Assembly: GCA_027943245.1 (NCBI GenBank)
Contig: JANDJZ010000095.1
Location: forward strand, 60,268-124,267
Direction: 5' to 3'
DNA: 64,000 nt
Source: Acanthamoeba sp. SK_2022b
Lineage: Eukaryota; Discosea; Longamoebia; Acanthamoebidae
The notes under the pieces are model-generated. The model did not search any database. It saw only the letters and a program-made list of their open reading frames with translations, and was not told the origin of the DNA. Position 1 is the stretch's first letter. Each line of letters begins with the position of its first letter. Below are positions 51,267 to 62,750 of the stretch, one piece after another. A program made the position numbers and the translations under genes.

Positions 51267-52040
51267 CACGCCTCTTGTAGGCTTCCTCCTTCATTCCCCT
51301 CTTCCGCTAGAGTATCATACACAACAGTACCATATTTGTTTGACGTCGTGGACCTCAGAGCGGTCTCAGACTCAAACAAACCCTTCTACCATTCTGTCTT
51401 GGGCGAGTGAAAAGTAAGTACTTGTAGAACGTCACACTTCCGCAGGCCCAAGCAGGTCTTCACAAGCATACTAGTTGCAGAATGGGGGGGGGGGACAGCT
51501 CTTTTGTGCCGCTCACTGGAACAGACGCAAGGTCGTTTAGCCCCTCCCGCAAGCAAGGCAGGGCTCGCGCAGTCTCACTGGCTTTCTTCACGCACTCACC
51601 GCGGTCAGCCAAAGGCGAATGAAGGAGTGGGGAGGAGGTACATGGGCACGGGAAGGTCGTTGGCCGGGAAAGTTGGACCGGCGGGAGTAACTGTGCTTGC
51701 AGGGGGGTCGCTCATCACGGGCGTGGGGGGCGGGGTGTGGTCCTTCTGCTGCGTCGGTGCATCTCCCATCTTGCTTGTGTTCTTCCTTTGCCTTTGCTTC
51801 TTTTTTATTGCCAAAGCTCACAGTGACGCGGCCACCAATCCTCCTGTGAGGATACGAGACCGCGAAACATCGTGCCGCTTCTCGCCTCGGGTGAAGAGGT
51901 TACACCGAGGACTGCGCCACAGTACTCACAGTGATGTGGCGGTAAGGGCCACTCGCTTTAAGGGTTGGGCGAGAGAGGAAGACAGGAAGTTACTCTTTCG
52001 CACTAATACACTCGACTACAATGTTGAATACGCCACGTTT
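51267..52040. other. Intergenic; right part resembles the 3' flank of the giant receptor gene
   Basis: No gene seen. A poly-G run lies near 51483. The last 70-90 bases before 52041 show patchy similarity to 55310-55395, the 3' flank of the receptor gene, as if copied together with the kinase fragment. Confidence 0.4.
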
Positions 52041-52370
52041 TTAGGCCATGTTGAGGCCGCTGGGAGCGCCACCGGCAGTGTCGTCGTCGCCGATCTCCTT
52101 GTCGAGGAAGGCCACCACGCGCTCCATGGTGGGCCTCTTGTCGGCCGACGCGTGCCAGCACTTCTTCATCACCTTGCGGAACTCGGCTGGACAGTCGCCG
52201 GGAATCTGCGGCCGCTTGCCCTCGAGCGACACGCCCATGAAGTTGCGCCCGGCGTAGGGCTCCTTGTGCGTCACCACCTGCTACATGGCCACGCCGAACG
52301 AGAACACGTCGGCGCGCTCGTCGTACTTGTCGCCGCGGATGATCTCCGGCGCCAGCACGGCGTGCCTCAT
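52041..52370 (-). pseudogene. Truncated copy of the receptor's second kinase domain
   Basis: Near-identical to 55396-55740, the last exon of the giant receptor. It encodes KEPYAGRNFMGVSLEGKRPQ through RPTMERVVAFLDKEIGDDD and ends GGAPSGLNMA with the same stop. Differences: three codons (DVL) deleted after GVSL, THK for TRK, Thr for Ser in the tail, a changed base that breaks the frame upstream of MVTHKEP, and a short deletion in the APEI-region. Similarity stops near 52370, so catalytic-loop and ATP-binding parts are absent. It cannot be a working kinase. Confidence 0.85.
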
Positions 52371-52609
52371 CGGGTGCCGTTTGGATGCACGTGTTCTAGG
52401 TGCATGGACTGCGATGCGTGGTCAACTGCCCGTTTCCTCACTGTCTTGCCTTGTAACAAGGAGCTGATCTGGAGTGCCACAACGAATAATAACTTTGCGG
52501 CCAAAATATATTAAATTAACTGTCGCCGGGCTTTTGTACTTTTTTTGTCGCCCCTCTCCCGCCCCCCAGGCAACTTCTGTCCCGCACACTGGCCGACCAC
52601 CGAATATTG

Positions 52610-55395: not shown

Positions 55396-57009
55396 TTAGG
55401 CCATGTTGAGGCCGCTGGGAGCACCGCCGGCAGAGTCGTCGTCGCCGATCTCCTTGTCGAGGAAGGCCACCACGCGCTCCATGGTGGGCCTCTTGTCGGC
55501 CGACGCGTGCCAGCACTTCTTCATCACCTTGCGGAACTCGGCCGGGCAGTCACCTGGAATCTGCGGCCGCTTGCCCTCGAGCACGTCCAACGACACGCCC
55601 ATGAAGTTGCGCCCGGCGTAGGGCTCCTTGCGCGTCACCACCTGCCACATGACGACTCCGAACGAGAACACGTCGGCGCGCTCGTCGTACTTCTCGCCGC
55701 GGATGATCTCCGGCGCCGTCCAGCACGGCGTGCCGCACCGCGTCATCGTCGCGTTCTCCTCCTTGATGCGCGCGAACCCAAAGTCGGCCACCTTCACGTT
55801 CCAGTTCTCGTCCACCAGCAGGTTGGAGGGCTTGACGTCGCGGTGCACGATGACCGGATGGAGCGAGTGGAGGTAGTTGATGCCCAGCGCCGCCGAGCGC
55901 AACATGCGCAGCTTCTGCTTCCACGCGAGCTTGACCGTGTTGTTGGCCAGGATGTCGCGCAGGCTGCCCTGCTTCATGAACTCGGTCACGATGCACAGGT
56001 TGGGCTTCTTCACGCACGCCCCGATGAACAGCACGATGTTGGGGTGGTGGAGCTCCGAGAGGAAGGCCATCTCGGCCCTGAACTCGAGCATGCGCCGCTC
56101 GTCGAGCTTCTGCTTGATGAAGCGCTTGACCGCCACCTCGACGCCCTTCCACTTGCCGCGGAACACCACGCCGTACGAGCCCAGCCCGACCTGCTTGCCC
56201 ACCTGGATCTCGTGGAAGTCGATGATCCATCGGCACAGGTTGGCCGACGTGAGGAACGTGTCCTCCTTGAACATCATGCCCTCGCCCACCGCTGTCTGCA
56301 TCTCACCGCGCCCGTCGGACGAGGCAGCGCCGCTGCCACTGGTGTAGCTGGCGTGCTCGACCTCCTTGTCCTTGTGCTTGCGGTCGTCGGACACGCCGCT
56401 CGACGGGCCGCCGCCGGACGACGACGACGTGCCCTCGACGTCCTTGTCGGTCACGCCACCGAAGAAACGGCCCTCCAGGCCCTTGACCTTCATCTCGTAC
56501 AGCTTCGCTCCTGTGTATATGTGGTGGGTGATGTGTGACGTGGCCATCATCAGTGAGGGAAGAGAGGGAGAGGGGAGTATCGGAGTCGAGGATGACGAAG
56601 AGATGGGCATACCTTGAGGCACGTCGGGCATCTCGAACTTGCCCAGACACACCACTCGACCCTGCTGCGCTCCTCCTCCGGCAGCGGCGGCAGCACCGGT
56701 TGAGGCGGCGCTCTTGGGCTCGCCCGCGGCCTCCCCTCCTCCGGCGGCGCCAGCAGTGGTGGGAGCGGCGGAGAGCTTCTCGTGGACGGCATGGCTCATG
56801 ACGATCTGGCCGCCGTGCGTCATGGCCGTGATGCGCGCCGCCGCGTTCACCACCGGCCCGATGTACTCCACGCGCCGCGTCATCGGATCGCGCACCGCCT
56901 TGGCCATGCCCAAGTGCACTCCCATCCTCACCCGCAGTCCCTTGTACAGCACCCTGTTCCCCCACACATAGCCACAGCCACCACCAGCACAACCGTGTGG
57001 TGAGTCGTT

Positions 57010-57088
<79 letters not shown>

Positions 57089-57853
57089 CACAGATGCATG
57101 AGGGGGGGGCCATACCGATCGTCGGTGTCGCCCCACTCCTCCGCCGCGCCGGGGTGCTCCAGCAGAGCCTCCGGCCACGAGGCCTCCAGCAGGGCCAGCT
57201 GCACATCGCAGCACCACGCCAGAGCGTCCGACGCGTGCTGGAAGGCCATGCAGAACGAGCCCTCGCCGCTGTTCCGATCGCGGATGAACACCACCTCGTA
57301 GCCCCGGTGCCGCCTCAACGCCGCCCTCAGCGTCTCGTTGTGGATCAGCGTGGCGTCGCGCATGGCCGCCGCGTTGAACTCCCACAGCGAGGCTGCGCGC
57401 GTGATGTCCGTGAACACGATGGCCACCTCGCCCTCGGGCGCCCTCACGGCGCCCGTGGCCATGTGCGCGGCCGAGAGGTTCTTGGAGGCGTTGGACGACG
57501 ACGACGAGCCCGTCGACGTCGACGACCCGTTGGTCGACGGCAGCGTCCACGACCCGTACAGGTTCTTCTTGGCCGCCCCTGTCCCCGCGCGGCCGCCGCC
57601 AGAGTCGCCCGAGGAAGAGGAGGTCGAGGTCTTGGAGGTGTAGGAGGTCACGCCGCCCGAGGTGGAGTCGCCGTGCATGGCCGACAGGCGGGTCATGATC
57701 TCGAGGAACGTGGGCCGGATGACCGGGTCCGTGTGCCAGCAGCTCGTGATGAGCTCCTCGTACTCGGCCGGACACGAGCCCGGCGCCTCTGGCATCTGCG
57801 GCCGGATGCCGTCGCGGATCACCGCCACCGCCACCGCCGCCGGACTGCCCTCG

Positions 57854-57923
<70 letters not shown>

Positions 57924-59821
57924 CACACACACAAATGAGAGAGAGAGAGAGAGAAACTCGTGTCAGTAGCTGCTGCAAGCGAGGGTGGCGTGATTGGCGG
58001 GGGGGAGTGGGACCTCATGCCAAAGTAGGGCTGCTCGCGAGTGAGCAGCTCCCACAGGATGATGCCGAACGAGTACACATCGGCCAGGATGAGATCCACC
58101 TCGCCCGACTCGTTGAGCACCTCCGGCGCCGTCCAGTGCACGCTGCCCGCGATCTCCTTGTTGTTGTTGCCGCCCTTCTGCTGCACGTCCTCCTTGAGCT
58201 TGGTGAGGCCAAAGTCGCTCACCTTGACGTTCCACTTGGAGTCCAGCAGCAGGTTGAGCGACTTGAGATCCCTGTGCACGATCCCTGTGCTCGTTGTAAC
58301 GGATGGTGTGAGTTGTTGTTGTCCCTTTGTGATAGATACGGCTCGTATGATGATGGATGATGGGTGTACCGGAGGAGTGGAGGAAGTGCATGCCCTTGGA
58401 GGCCTGGTAGGCCATCTTGGCCTTGAGCACGAACGGAATCTCTGGAATCAGCTCGTTGTGCAGCAACTGCCTCCCAGCCACAATTATCATGATACATGAT
58501 GATGATGAAGATGGTCGCCACATAGAATATAATGATCAAATTGATCGTTAGCGCCACTGGCTGATCGTAGTTGCAAGAGCAAACCGGAGGCGGGAGGAGG
58601 GAGGCGGGGAGACGCACGTCGTAGAGGGAGCCGAGCGACATGTACTCCATGACGATGCACATCTTGGGCGCCTTGGTCGACGCCGCCATGAACAGCACCA
58701 CGTTCGGATGCCGCAGCGAAGTCATCACTCTCACCTGCATTCCGTTGGGTTTGCGCCAAGATGGTTGGTGAGGCGCTGTCGGTGGGAGCATGTGGTGAGG
58801 GGGAGGGAGAGGTCACACCTCGTCTTGGAAGTTCTTCTCCATGTCCTTGGTGATCTTTTCCGAAGCGATGACCTTGACGGCCACCTCGGTGCCCTTCCAC
58901 ACGGCCTTGTGCACCTCACCGTATCCGCCTGTGCACGCGCCAAGGACAACAATGAGACCTTGAACTCTCACGCCCATTCGTAACCCAGAGTGGTGGGGCG
59001 GGGCGCAGGCATACCGGCGCCCAGTTGTTCGCCGATTTCGAGTTCGTCGTAGTTGATCTCCCAGTCGTCCGACTTGCTGTTCCTGAACCGCAGCGCCACC
59101 ACGACCACGGCCACCAAGCACGCGACCACCACCAGGACGACCACCGCCACTGGGATGACCGTGGCTGTGTAGACAACAACACGCGTTGGACCACGCGTGT
59201 GAGGGAGCGGTTTGAAAAAGACGAGAATGGGCAGAGGTGAGGTGGACGAACCGACGACGGTGACAGTGGCATCCGAGGAGGAGCTGCTGGCGTCGAGCTG
59301 CTCGCAGTACTGGCCCTTCCTCCCGGTGTCGCACACGCAGGCATTGTTGACGCAGGCGCCCATGTCCGAGCACAGCGCGCCGTCGTTGATGCACCCGTAC
59401 AGCTGGCTCACCGCCACCCCGTCGCACGAGAACGCCTTCATCTGGTTGAGCAGCCGGCGCTGCACCGTAGGATCACCTGAGGCCAGAATGAAGCCTTGCC
59501 TGCCATCACCCAATTTGTGGCGTGCCACGATTAGGTCAGTTGTGCGCTCGATGGAGGAATGAATGGAATGACTCGGCCACCACCACGAGCAGAGTACGCT
59601 CGGGCGTGGTGTTTTTACCTATTCGCGATCTGCTGCGAGGCGGCGCTGGTCTGGGTCCAGTAGATGAAGGAGGCCAACGCCTGCGCCTTGCTGCAGTCCT
59701 CCATCCTGCGGCTGTGGTAGATGAACGAACCGAATGTCGCCAACGGCCAGCTCTCGCTGCCTCCGCCTGCTCTCCCACCACCACAGCGTCGCACCAACAA
59801 CCAACTTCGTTGGTCACCGCA

Positions 59822-59888
<67 letters not shown>

Positions 59889-62750
59889 GAGAGAGAGAGA
59901 GAGAGCTGGAGCGGGGGAGTTGGCCACGCACTGAGGATGATGCCGTTGAAGGCCGGGTCGGCATTGGCTGCAAAGTAGCTGCTCACGGCGCTCTCGATCG
60001 ACGTCGAGTTGGCCCGCACCACGGTCCCATCGCTTCGCCGCAGGCTCGCCAGATCCAGCGTGCGCGTCTGTCATGATTTGCATAACCCCCCCCCCCAATC
60101 CGCCCAATTTACACAATGAGCTGATGCCAATGCCGTGCATCAATGACGAACTGATGAGAGAGAGCACGCGAGGTATGCGCACCAGGACGACGTCGTATTG
60201 GGTGGCGAAAGCGAAGCCGTAATCCGTGGCTGCCAGGTTGTTGGCAAGGTCGGTGATGCCGTTGGAAAAGACCGTCGTGTTGCTCGACGCCACCGGGAAG
60301 CTCACCAGCGATCCGGCGCCCACCTGGGCCGCAAATTGGGGCACCGTGGCGTTGAGCATGGTGGTGAAGAGCTGCGTGGTGGCCGTCGCCACCGTCTGCA
60401 CCACCACGCGGATGGCCTGCGTGGGCAGCGCGGCGGCCACTTCGGGCGCGTTGAGGGCCTTGATGCGCTCGTCGTCCCACATGGTGATATCCCTGCGTAG
60501 AAGGGATTTTTGTGCGTGTGAGCCAAGTCGTTATGCGTACAGGCAGCAATCATGAAGATCGGAAGGGCGATGGCAAGGGGGGTACCCGAGATAGATGGCA
60601 GCAATGGTGTCAAAGTCAAGCACCAGCTCCATTCCGTCCAGCTCACGCATGTTGTAGCCTGTTATGTTATTCCACCGGTTGCGAGTGGTGAGACCACTCA
60701 TCGTTATTTGTCAAATCATATAATTAATATTCTCTATTCCAAAGACTAGAGGAGGGGGGGGGGCACCTGGCACGATGGCGTAAATCGTGGCGGGCATGAG
60801 GGCCACGTCGTCGATCTTCGTGTACCACTCATCCTCGAGGCCGTCGCTCGTCATGCCAAACTGTTCGTCGAACGTGCTCAGCTGCTGCTTGGCCTGCAGC
60901 GACGTCGAGCCAAAATACTTGAACGTGGCCTGGGTGGTCGAGTAGCCGACCGTCCACCCCGAGTAGATCGGAAGCGGAGGGCCCGTTGCGATGAGGTACG
61001 ACGTGTTTGACGCCAGTTCGCCGTTGCACTCGACCTTTCTGAAGACGTCGATGATGTTCTTCCGCAGGCTCACGTCGATGGGCACCGCTCCGTTGGAGAT
61101 CGCCAGATTCGAAGCCCTTTAACGTGCGCGCGGGCGATTGTCAGGTCAAACAGTGCAGCGTATGTGTAGCGGGGGCGTGGACAGGAGGAGCGGCGCGTAC
61201 TCGTCGTTGGTGAGCGTCCACGCAATGAAGCGCAGCAGCTCGGCGATGTTGGTGCAGTCGAGCGCCGTCGCGCTGCGATTGATGGCCAGGAAGGAGAGGT
61301 AGGCCAACGGCCACGAATCGTTGCCGCCGGCATCGACGATGTCGATGGTGAGCTGGCCAGCACTGATGTTGGCCGCGAACTGGCTCATGGCCGCTTGCAC
61401 TGAGTCCACACTGGGCTCCACGCGCTGGCCGGCCTTGTTGATCATGTTGACCCACGGCAGGCCATTGGCCGTGCAGTCGGTGAGCCTCACGAACGTCATC
61501 CCGTTCGTCGTGTTCTAGATGCATACAAAAACATCAATTAGATAGTATAATTAAAAAATATTTAATACAATAATCCAATTTTGATAGATAAACAGATAAG
61601 AAATAAGAACTCGAATTGTCCATCACGTGGTCAGATCCAATGGCAACATGTTTTTTGAAGGAAGAGGTTCACGTGCCTTCACCCACGCAATGCGATCGCT
61701 GCCCTTGGGTCCGGCCTCGAAGGCGTGACCGGCCAGGGCGGGCGGCATTAGGGCGAACGAGTCGTTGGCGGCGGCGAGGGCCGTGCGGAAGCTCTCGCTG
61801 AAGCTCGACAGGGCCGCCTTGAGAACGGCGGCAAACGAGAGCTGAGTGTTGACGTTGTAACCCAGGACGATGTTGGTGGCGGGCAGCTTGGCAGCGAGGG
61901 CCGGCGTGTTGAGGTCCTTGATGCGCTGGTCGTTCCACATGGTGATGTCACCCGCCCAGATGGCGCCCAGCACGTTCCGATCAAGCACCTATCGTTGCCG
62001 TGCACGGCCAGCGCACGTGAGAGCCGTCCACACACGACCACCCCCCCCCCCTTGAAGGATCAGGAAAAGAGGGGAGCGTACAATGCGGTCGGTGGAGTTG
62101 AGGGAGGGGAGGTTGTAGGTGACCACCATGGCCTGGCCGAAGAGCGGGAACTGGAGCAGGTTGGCGTAGGTGCTCGAGTTGGTGGCCGTTATCCCGCGGT
62201 CCGTGCATACGAAGTCCTATCACATGGAGAATAAGAATTGATTTAGGGCAGGCTATCTATATCGATTGATGGTTGAGGCCTTGGCCTTTCCACATGGTGG
62301 AATGGTGAAGATACAAAGGGCCACGAACCACATCTAGGCGGTTGTAGGCGGCGAGGCCCGCCTCGGATGTGGAACCGGAGTAGGAGATGCTGGACACATT
62401 GGGAAAAAGTGGTAACAGTTTAGATCGTATCCGTATGAAGCGCGACCTCAAGTACGTGTCCCCCAACCTACTGGCCGGAGTTGAGATGTGTCATGTACCC
62501 AACATCATCGCGAACGTAAAGGTAGGTCTGATCCCACGCGTCGAACACGGCCTGAGGGTTGGACGTACCGCCCCCGTACAACTGAACACTGAACGCTGCT
62601 TCGCGAGAGCAACAAGAAAGCCAGAGGTAAGCGACCGAGCAGTGGCTAGTTTGATCTTCCAGTGCTGTGTGTGTTTGTACAAGACGGCGTACCGCCAGAG
62701 TGCAGGAGGAGGAAGGACAGGATGACCACAACTCTCAAGGCGCACTTCAT
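55396..62750 (-). CDS. Giant receptor: two PstS-like domains, EGF, TM, kinase, nucleotide cyclase, kinase
   Basis: Signal peptide from Met 62750 (CALRVVVILSFLLLHSG). Two extracellular phosphate-binding-protein-like modules follow: LYGGGTSNPQAVFD, ISYSGSTSEAGLAAY, DRGITATNSST, AIWAGDITMWNDQRIKDLN, then AAIYLGDITMWDDERIKALN. An EGF-like knot (CINDGALCSDMGACVNNACVC) precedes one membrane helix (VIPVAVVVLVVVACLVAVVV). Kinase 1 has VAVKVI, HRDLKSLNLLLD, SDFGLTKL and WTAPEVL, so it looks active. A class III cyclase domain begins EVAIVFTDITRAASLWEF and ends near GPVVNAAARITAMTHGGQI. Kinase 2 has VGLGSYGVVFRG, VAVKRF, HRDVKPSNLLVD, ADFGFARI and WTAPEII. About 20 exons. A ligand-sensing surface receptor, probably in the plasma membrane; ligand unknown. 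Confidence 0.88.
57011..57087. repeat. (TG)n microsatellite in receptor intron
   Basis: TG run of about 77 bases on the plus strand, (CA)n on the sense strand, inside the cyclase-coding part. Confidence 0.95.
57855..57932. repeat. (CA)n microsatellite in receptor intron
   Basis: CA run of about 75 bases, (TG)n on the sense strand, followed by a short GA tract. It lies in the intron that interrupts the C-lobe of kinase 1. Confidence 0.95.
59823..59887. repeat. (CA)n microsatellite in receptor intron
   Basis: CA run of about 65 bases, (TG)n on the sense strand, followed by GA repeats. In an intron of the second extracellular module. Confidence 0.95.

Follow-up and report, generated by a model that had tools for sequence, protein, structure and literature searches.

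What does an amoebal receptor sense, and what does it send into the cell, when it carries binding domains of bacterial type on the outside and a cyclase-like domain between two kinases on the inside? We have analyzed a gene of this kind on the minus strand of a stretch of 64,000 nucleotides (the window, as the whole stretch is called below) from Acanthamoeba sp. SK_2022b, contig JANDJZ010000095.1 of assembly GCA_027943245.1. An earlier note on this DNA had proposed a single protein able to sense phosphate or another small ligand through PstS-like domains and to signal by both phosphorylation and cyclic nucleotide. The new point of our analysis concerns the second half of that proposal: judging from its residues, the cyclase-like domain has probably lost what catalysis needs, so that the output would be phosphorylation only.

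The order of domains in the protein is two tandem PstS-type domains, an EGF-like stretch, one membrane helix, a kinase, a cyclase-fold domain and a second kinase. Pfam found PBP_like_2 (E 1.2e-16) and PK_Tyr_Ser-Thr (E 2.7e-129) in two stretches each and Guanylate_cyc (E 3.4e-13) in one, and by hydropathy the N-terminus is hydrophobic and a single strong membrane helix is present, which bears out the kinase-cyclase-kinase interior and the single helix of the earlier note. Both kinase domains carry complete Lys, HRD, DFG and APE motifs; their placement in the TKL group means only that PK_Tyr_Ser-Thr was the best Pfam match. The EGF-like stretch is below the cut-off in the window protein (EGF_TEN E 0.016, EGF_2 E 0.078) and passes it in the relatives P0133 and P0130.

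This architecture was already published in 2013 and 2015, and the window gene is one more copy of a large, lineage-expanded family. In the relevant passages of Clarke 2013 (PMC4053784), Acanthamoeba castellanii has 67 nucleotidyl cyclases, with an extracellular receptor domain, a single helix and a cyclase flanked by a kinase on either side, and several giant viruses of amoebae are said to share this build. Passages of the Physarum genome paper (PMC4758236) assign 66 of these 67 to kinase-cyclase-kinase receptors, give 43 for Physarum, and name another cyclase of A. castellanii, AcrA. The window protein belongs to this receptor family by its architecture and by close kinship to members from A. 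castellanii and giant viruses: the best named match is protein P0001 of A. castellanii Neff (68% over 94%), and the mimivirus protein P0002 is 45% identical over 99%. The A. castellanii receptors share with it the receptor ectodomain, the one helix and the kinase-flanked cyclase, but in the published passages they are called nucleotidyl cyclases and their ectodomain is unnamed, whereas here the ectodomain is of PstS type and catalytic residues are missing. Among the literature matches listed, which do not extend to supplements, there was no statement that these cyclases are inactive and no naming of PstS for these receptors.

Catalytic residues of the cyclase-fold domain

Class III cyclases use two metal-binding Asp, both of them required, a base-reading Lys or Glu plus an Asp or Cys, and a transition-state Asn and Arg. 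In the window protein the first metal Asp is kept (FTDI, Asp at residue 1149) and the second is absent, SGEGSFC being found at that place. The canonical hairpin GYEVKTEGD[SA]FM has become GYEVVFIRDRNSGEGSFCM; it reads GYEVVFAGDRSGCSGEGSFCM in A. castellanii P0001 and GYESFIYRDHNSGEGSFCL in mimivirus P0002, and the altered members have a hairpin insertion of variable length. The base-reading residues are gone as well, with EVV for EVK and VEY for MDY. With the second metal ligand and both base-reading residues absent, cyclic-nucleotide signalling by this receptor, as the earlier note had it, appears unlikely. An intron within the hairpin that concealed a canonical motif was considered and rejected, nothing canonical being visible; loci L072, L073 and L074 of the census below do have an apparent intron there, with sides reading FIR and DRNSGEGSFC, and the window gene has none at this position.

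The alteration is not peculiar to one gene. In the window's own assembly (44.9 Mb, 1129 contigs) 115 exon matches to the first half of the cyclase domain gave 90 loci, which are loci and not genes, and a few weak ones, such as L098 with 28% identity, may lie outside the family. The first Asp, aligned in 89 of them, is Asp in 89/89. The second-metal motif, also aligned in 89, is exactly GEGSFC in 75, a variant of it in 14 and the canonical GD in none (scored as GD followed by a small and then an aromatic or aliphatic residue). On another contig, the cyclase exon segment of L009 (G000 C572:3851-4174) is identical in DNA to that of the window gene over 321 bases, which would fit either a second haplotype or a duplication of very recent date; L011 and L012 show 98% protein identity to the window segment.

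Similar results were obtained with database proteins. We aligned 137 segments and retained the 115 longer than 90 residues, from 97 proteins. The altered motif is common to members from Acanthamoeba, Balamuthia, protist transcripts and giant viruses, including the two A. castellanii members for which this region was available (P0001 and P0183), while most other sequences keep GD and some bacterial cyclases and repeats lose it in their own ways. None of the 14 giant-virus proteins aligned has Asp at the second position. When 77 segments were placed in a tree, those with the altered motif (25, from 24 database proteins and the window) formed one clade against 52 canonical ones, with branch support 100/100 and presence in 200/200 bootstrap trees. 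The 77 rows, out of 116 with the window counted, are those of at least 140 residues whose motif matched one of two patterns that we defined, and the clade holds for those 77; rows with neither motif, which include some bacterial cyclases and degenerate repeats in other proteins, are not in the tree, nor are the short segments of P0003 and P0183. The ratio of nonsynonymous to synonymous substitutions (dN/dS) of the altered segment had a median of 0.26 and a maximum of 0.84 (578 pairs among 35 ungapped loci, dS 0.1-1.5), the values for three distant loci against the window being 0.62-0.65. These values indicate that the cyclase-fold domain has been kept by selection despite its incomplete catalytic set.

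The viruses with such a receptor are mimivirus, Niemeyer virus, moumouviruses, megaviruses, cotonvirus, pithovirus, mollivirus, medusavirus and Pandoravirus. Their proteins resemble the window protein in joining binding domain, kinase and cyclase fold in one chain with the altered motif, and the cyclase segment is 45-70% identical for 13 viral proteins. The Pandoravirus protein (36% over 90%) has no Guanylate_cyc in its Pfam list, reads AGAGCMC and has a truncated second kinase. When viral structure models were searched with the model of another protein, P0137, four large proteins came first, two of them named as Pandoravirus kinases, and kinases made up most of the remaining matches; we give this result no weight.

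Several observations weigh against a loss of catalysis. The transition-state Asn and Arg are kept in the window protein (NAAARI at 1282), which makes the loss a partial one and leaves room for nucleotide binding or low activity; their retention also argues against calling the domain a random ruin. A Glu sits one residue ahead of the expected Asp position (the loop directly ahead of it, residues 576-580 in the model of P0137, has a predicted confidence, pLDDT, below 50). The Pelomyxa protein P0187 and the EukProt protist protein P0181 have the same intracellular build, with two kinase stretches and a cyclase domain, and keep canonical cyclase residues; they differ from the window protein in their canonical EVKTEGD motif and in their ectodomains (SBP_bac and ANF_receptor). 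The absence of GD is not confined to the family (myxobacterial proteins with QGG are one example), which makes the motif alone an imperfect guide. Finally, passages of PMC9283445 and PMC7235994 cite reports that A. castellanii has adenylate cyclase activity, although AcrA is a further cyclase named for that amoeba (PMC4758236).

An alternative is a cyclase that is active despite its altered motif, the Glu of GEGSF acting as second metal ligand and other residues selecting the base, and the receptor would then signal through phosphorylation and cyclic nucleotide together, as the earlier note assumed. The constancy of the first Asp across the aligned loci, the retained Asn and Arg, the strong conservation of the altered motif under purifying selection and the activity reported in A. 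castellanii would agree with this, and activity is implied by the name nucleotidyl cyclase in the passages of the genome papers. However, the second-position Asp is missing from every aligned locus and every aligned giant-virus protein, the window protein has lost its base-reading Lys and Asp too, and the hairpin insertion varies in length. We consider an active cyclase unlikely.

Binding domains related to PstS

Taken alone, each binding domain of the window protein matched solved PstS structures, the first with E 6.3e-17 (8ods) and the second with E 1.3e-18 (1qul), values that rule out a chance likeness. The PstS-like nature of the ectodomain is thereby supported, and the two domains lie at about 62.7-59.4 kb, close to the place given in the earlier note (59.5-62.7 kb). 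In a structure model of the A. castellanii paralogue P0204, which is not the window protein, the best seven PstS chains superposed with TM scores of 0.81-0.88 (normalized by target length), and block-mean pLDDT was mostly 75-96 across its two binding domains. Kinship to bacterial PstS is thus found in the sequence of the window protein and in the fold of a paralogue. The window protein differs from the bacterial one in bearing a tandem pair on a receptor and in its phosphate-contact residues, of which the full set is not present.

The phosphate contacts of PstS are Thr10, Phe11, Ser38, Asp56, Arg135, Ser139, Gly140 and Thr141. The equivalent of Arg135 is replaced in both window domains, by Asn in the first (according to the alignment) and by Gln in the second. 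The Ser139-Gly140 pair is also replaced in both, by Thr-Ala in the second. Asp56 has its equivalent in the first domain, and Ser with an adjoining Asp in the second, whereas the equivalent of Thr141 is kept in the second domain only. Outside Balamuthia P0133, 0/22 aligned rows (window counted) keep the Ser-Gly pair in either domain; among them only the second domain of P0134 still has the Arg, and in several viral members the Ser alone is left. P0133 itself has the R.DGSGTT run complete in both PstS domains, Phe11 being Leu in the second, and a signature like it occurs in 111/120 of the stand-alone PstS-type proteins compared with it.

From these replacements the ligand of the window receptor is probably not phosphate. 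That the receptor does sense phosphate through these domains, as the earlier note allowed, would agree with the PstS kinship of both, with the contacts that persist (Asp56 in the first domain, and Thr141 in the second, which has Thr in place of Ser139), with the intact run in Balamuthia and with the paralogous locus L007 of the same genome, which reads RSDPSVTT in one domain. But Arg135 and the Ser-Gly pair have gone from both window domains, and the second has Ser for Asp56 with the Asp only beside it, and we find phosphate sensing quite improbable, more so than an active cyclase. The next domain of L007 has a GSGATLP start and TDFGSSDAV, and the cyclase locus L094 lies ~3 kb further on, on the same strand.

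The earlier note had also suggested the capture of a bacterial module, and the comparisons support the view that the ectodomain module came from bacteria. The first domain of Balamuthia P0133 matched PstS with E 2.1e-48, and its identity to stand-alone PstS-type proteins reaches 46%; few of these proteins are named, and those that are come from Anaerolineales, Chloroflexi, Myxococcales and Roseomonas. The data fit a bacterial PstS that was captured and doubled and whose phosphate site was later lost during expansion. A tree of 30 receptor domains and 40 of the 120 stand-alone proteins, the latter being the best matches of the Balamuthia domain, is compatible with one capture as well as with two: the first domains require three changes and so do the second ones, support is weak at some of the deep forks, and six rows are long.

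The six best PBP_like_2 matches in the assembly (L001-L006) were excluded as stand-alone PstS genes of the amoeba, being long, intronless, bacterial-looking frames, and L003, L004 and L005 adjoin bacterial-looking genes (recognized by eye). Their contigs are probably contamination or food bacteria. Among P0187, P0181, P0130 and P0183, which are relatives sharing the intracellular build, other ectodomains appear by Pfam, namely bacterial solute-binding (Pelomyxa), ANF receptor and 5'-nucleotidase C-terminal. The metagenomic protein P0078 carries PBP_like_2 and PF00003, the class C G protein-coupled receptor domain, in its precomputed Pfam list; PstS-type domains may have been joined to such receptors too.

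Gene model and coordinates

The spliced model runs from an ATG at 62750 to a TAA ending at 55396, the ends already given in the earlier note, and has 5193 coding nucleotides without internal stops. Exon ends were picked by eye; all introns are GT-AG (19/19) and measure 82-169 bases, and two in-frame GT donors leave one residue uncertain at the end of exon 3. That everything from the ectodomain to the second kinase forms a single gene, as previously supposed, is supported because viruses encode full-length homologues, such as mimivirus P0002, as one protein and because the assembled protist transcripts P0134 and P0135 join kinase and binding domains. For the same reasons two separate genes were judged unlikely. 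The features are collected in Table 1.

Table 1. Features of the receptor gene, in window positions
Feature	Positions	Strand	Residues and exons	Basis
Whole gene	55396..62750	minus	1730 aa, 20 exons	spliced model
Probable signal peptide	62694..62750	minus	1-19	hydropathy; cleavage site not predicted
PstS-type binding domain 1	61017..62693	minus	20-366, exons 1-7	PstS 8ods E 6.3e-17, Pfam
PstS-type binding domain 2	59415..61010	minus	369-700, exons 7-12	PstS 1qul E 1.3e-18, Pfam
EGF-like Cys-rich stretch	59298..59390	minus	~709-739	sub-cut-off Pfam
Membrane helix	59091..59264	minus	~751-779, exons 12-13	hydropathy
Kinase 1 (TKL type)	57676..59033	minus	799-1059	Lys, HRD, DFG, APE present
Class III cyclase-fold domain	56464..57447	minus	1136-1375	FTDI kept, SGEGSFC for GD motif
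SGEGSFC motif	57250..57270	minus	1195-1201	replaces canonical EGD[SA]F hairpin
Kinase 2 (TKL type)	55453..56220	minus	1457-1712	Lys, HRD, DFG, APE present

Long runs of (CA)n or (GT)n, 63-78 bases each, lie in three of the introns (57011-57087, 57856-57933 and 59824-59886). An apparent partial duplicate, 91% identical to the last ~350 bases of the gene (the end of kinase 2), lies ~3 kb away at 52026-52375 on the minus strand.

A putative receptor kinase with a cyclase-fold hinge

The explanation that we favor, and consider reasonably probable as a whole, is a single-pass receptor kinase with a non-enzymatic cyclase-fold hinge and a captured, doubled PstS that has lost its phosphate site. A ligand in the clefts of the binding domains would close them and alter the arrangement of the receptor dimer, and this rearrangement would turn kinase 1 on. 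The relatives of the cyclase-fold domain pair head to tail, and the domain itself could serve as a dimerizing or nucleotide-sensing hinge and not as an enzyme. Kinase 2 would then relay the signal by phosphorylation, most likely the only output. The ancestral ectodomain would have been a phosphate-binding PstS from a bacterium, present twice; in the Acanthamoeba expansion its phosphate site would have been lost and the ligands probably diversified.

For the family at large we lean, somewhat less firmly, towards the view that the largest family of nucleotidyl cyclases reported in an amoeba consists of pseudocyclases. One founding loss would have occurred in the ancestor of the Acanthamoeba, Balamuthia and giant-virus members, the fold being kept in dozens of copies between two working kinases, in a structural or sensing role, while the doubled PstS diversified and gave up phosphate.

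We have searched the genome for cyclases of other kinds. With PF00211, and in the same way with the canonical Pelomyxa domain, the matches listed (compared by eye) all lay at or next to the family loci, and the best-scoring match of the Pelomyxa query was a family locus with 47% identity. AcrA was not seen by these searches, which an intron-split AcrA could escape. A heterodimer of the cyclase-fold domain with a canonical cyclase chain, with one shared working site as in the mammalian C1-C2 pairs, is the least probable of the alternatives, since the Asn and Arg that one half supplies are kept but the base-reading residues are gone and, an intron-split AcrA apart, the searches just described listed no canonical partner.

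Animal receptor guanylyl cyclases have a ligand-binding ectodomain, one helix and a degenerate kinase-like domain followed by a working cyclase. The reverse is indicated here, complete kinases with an altered cyclase, and a second kinase follows; if true, the amoebal receptors would be the mirror image of the animal ones, live kinases around a dead cyclase. If the cyclases are dead and those of A. castellanii are alike, the published 67 nucleotidyl cyclases would drop to about one, and the control of encystment by cyclic AMP would rest on AcrA. In the ectodomain, a protein with which bacteria bind nutrients has become a receptor module of a eukaryote, and as a relative in Balamuthia still has the bacterial signature, the change of ligand is directly testable.

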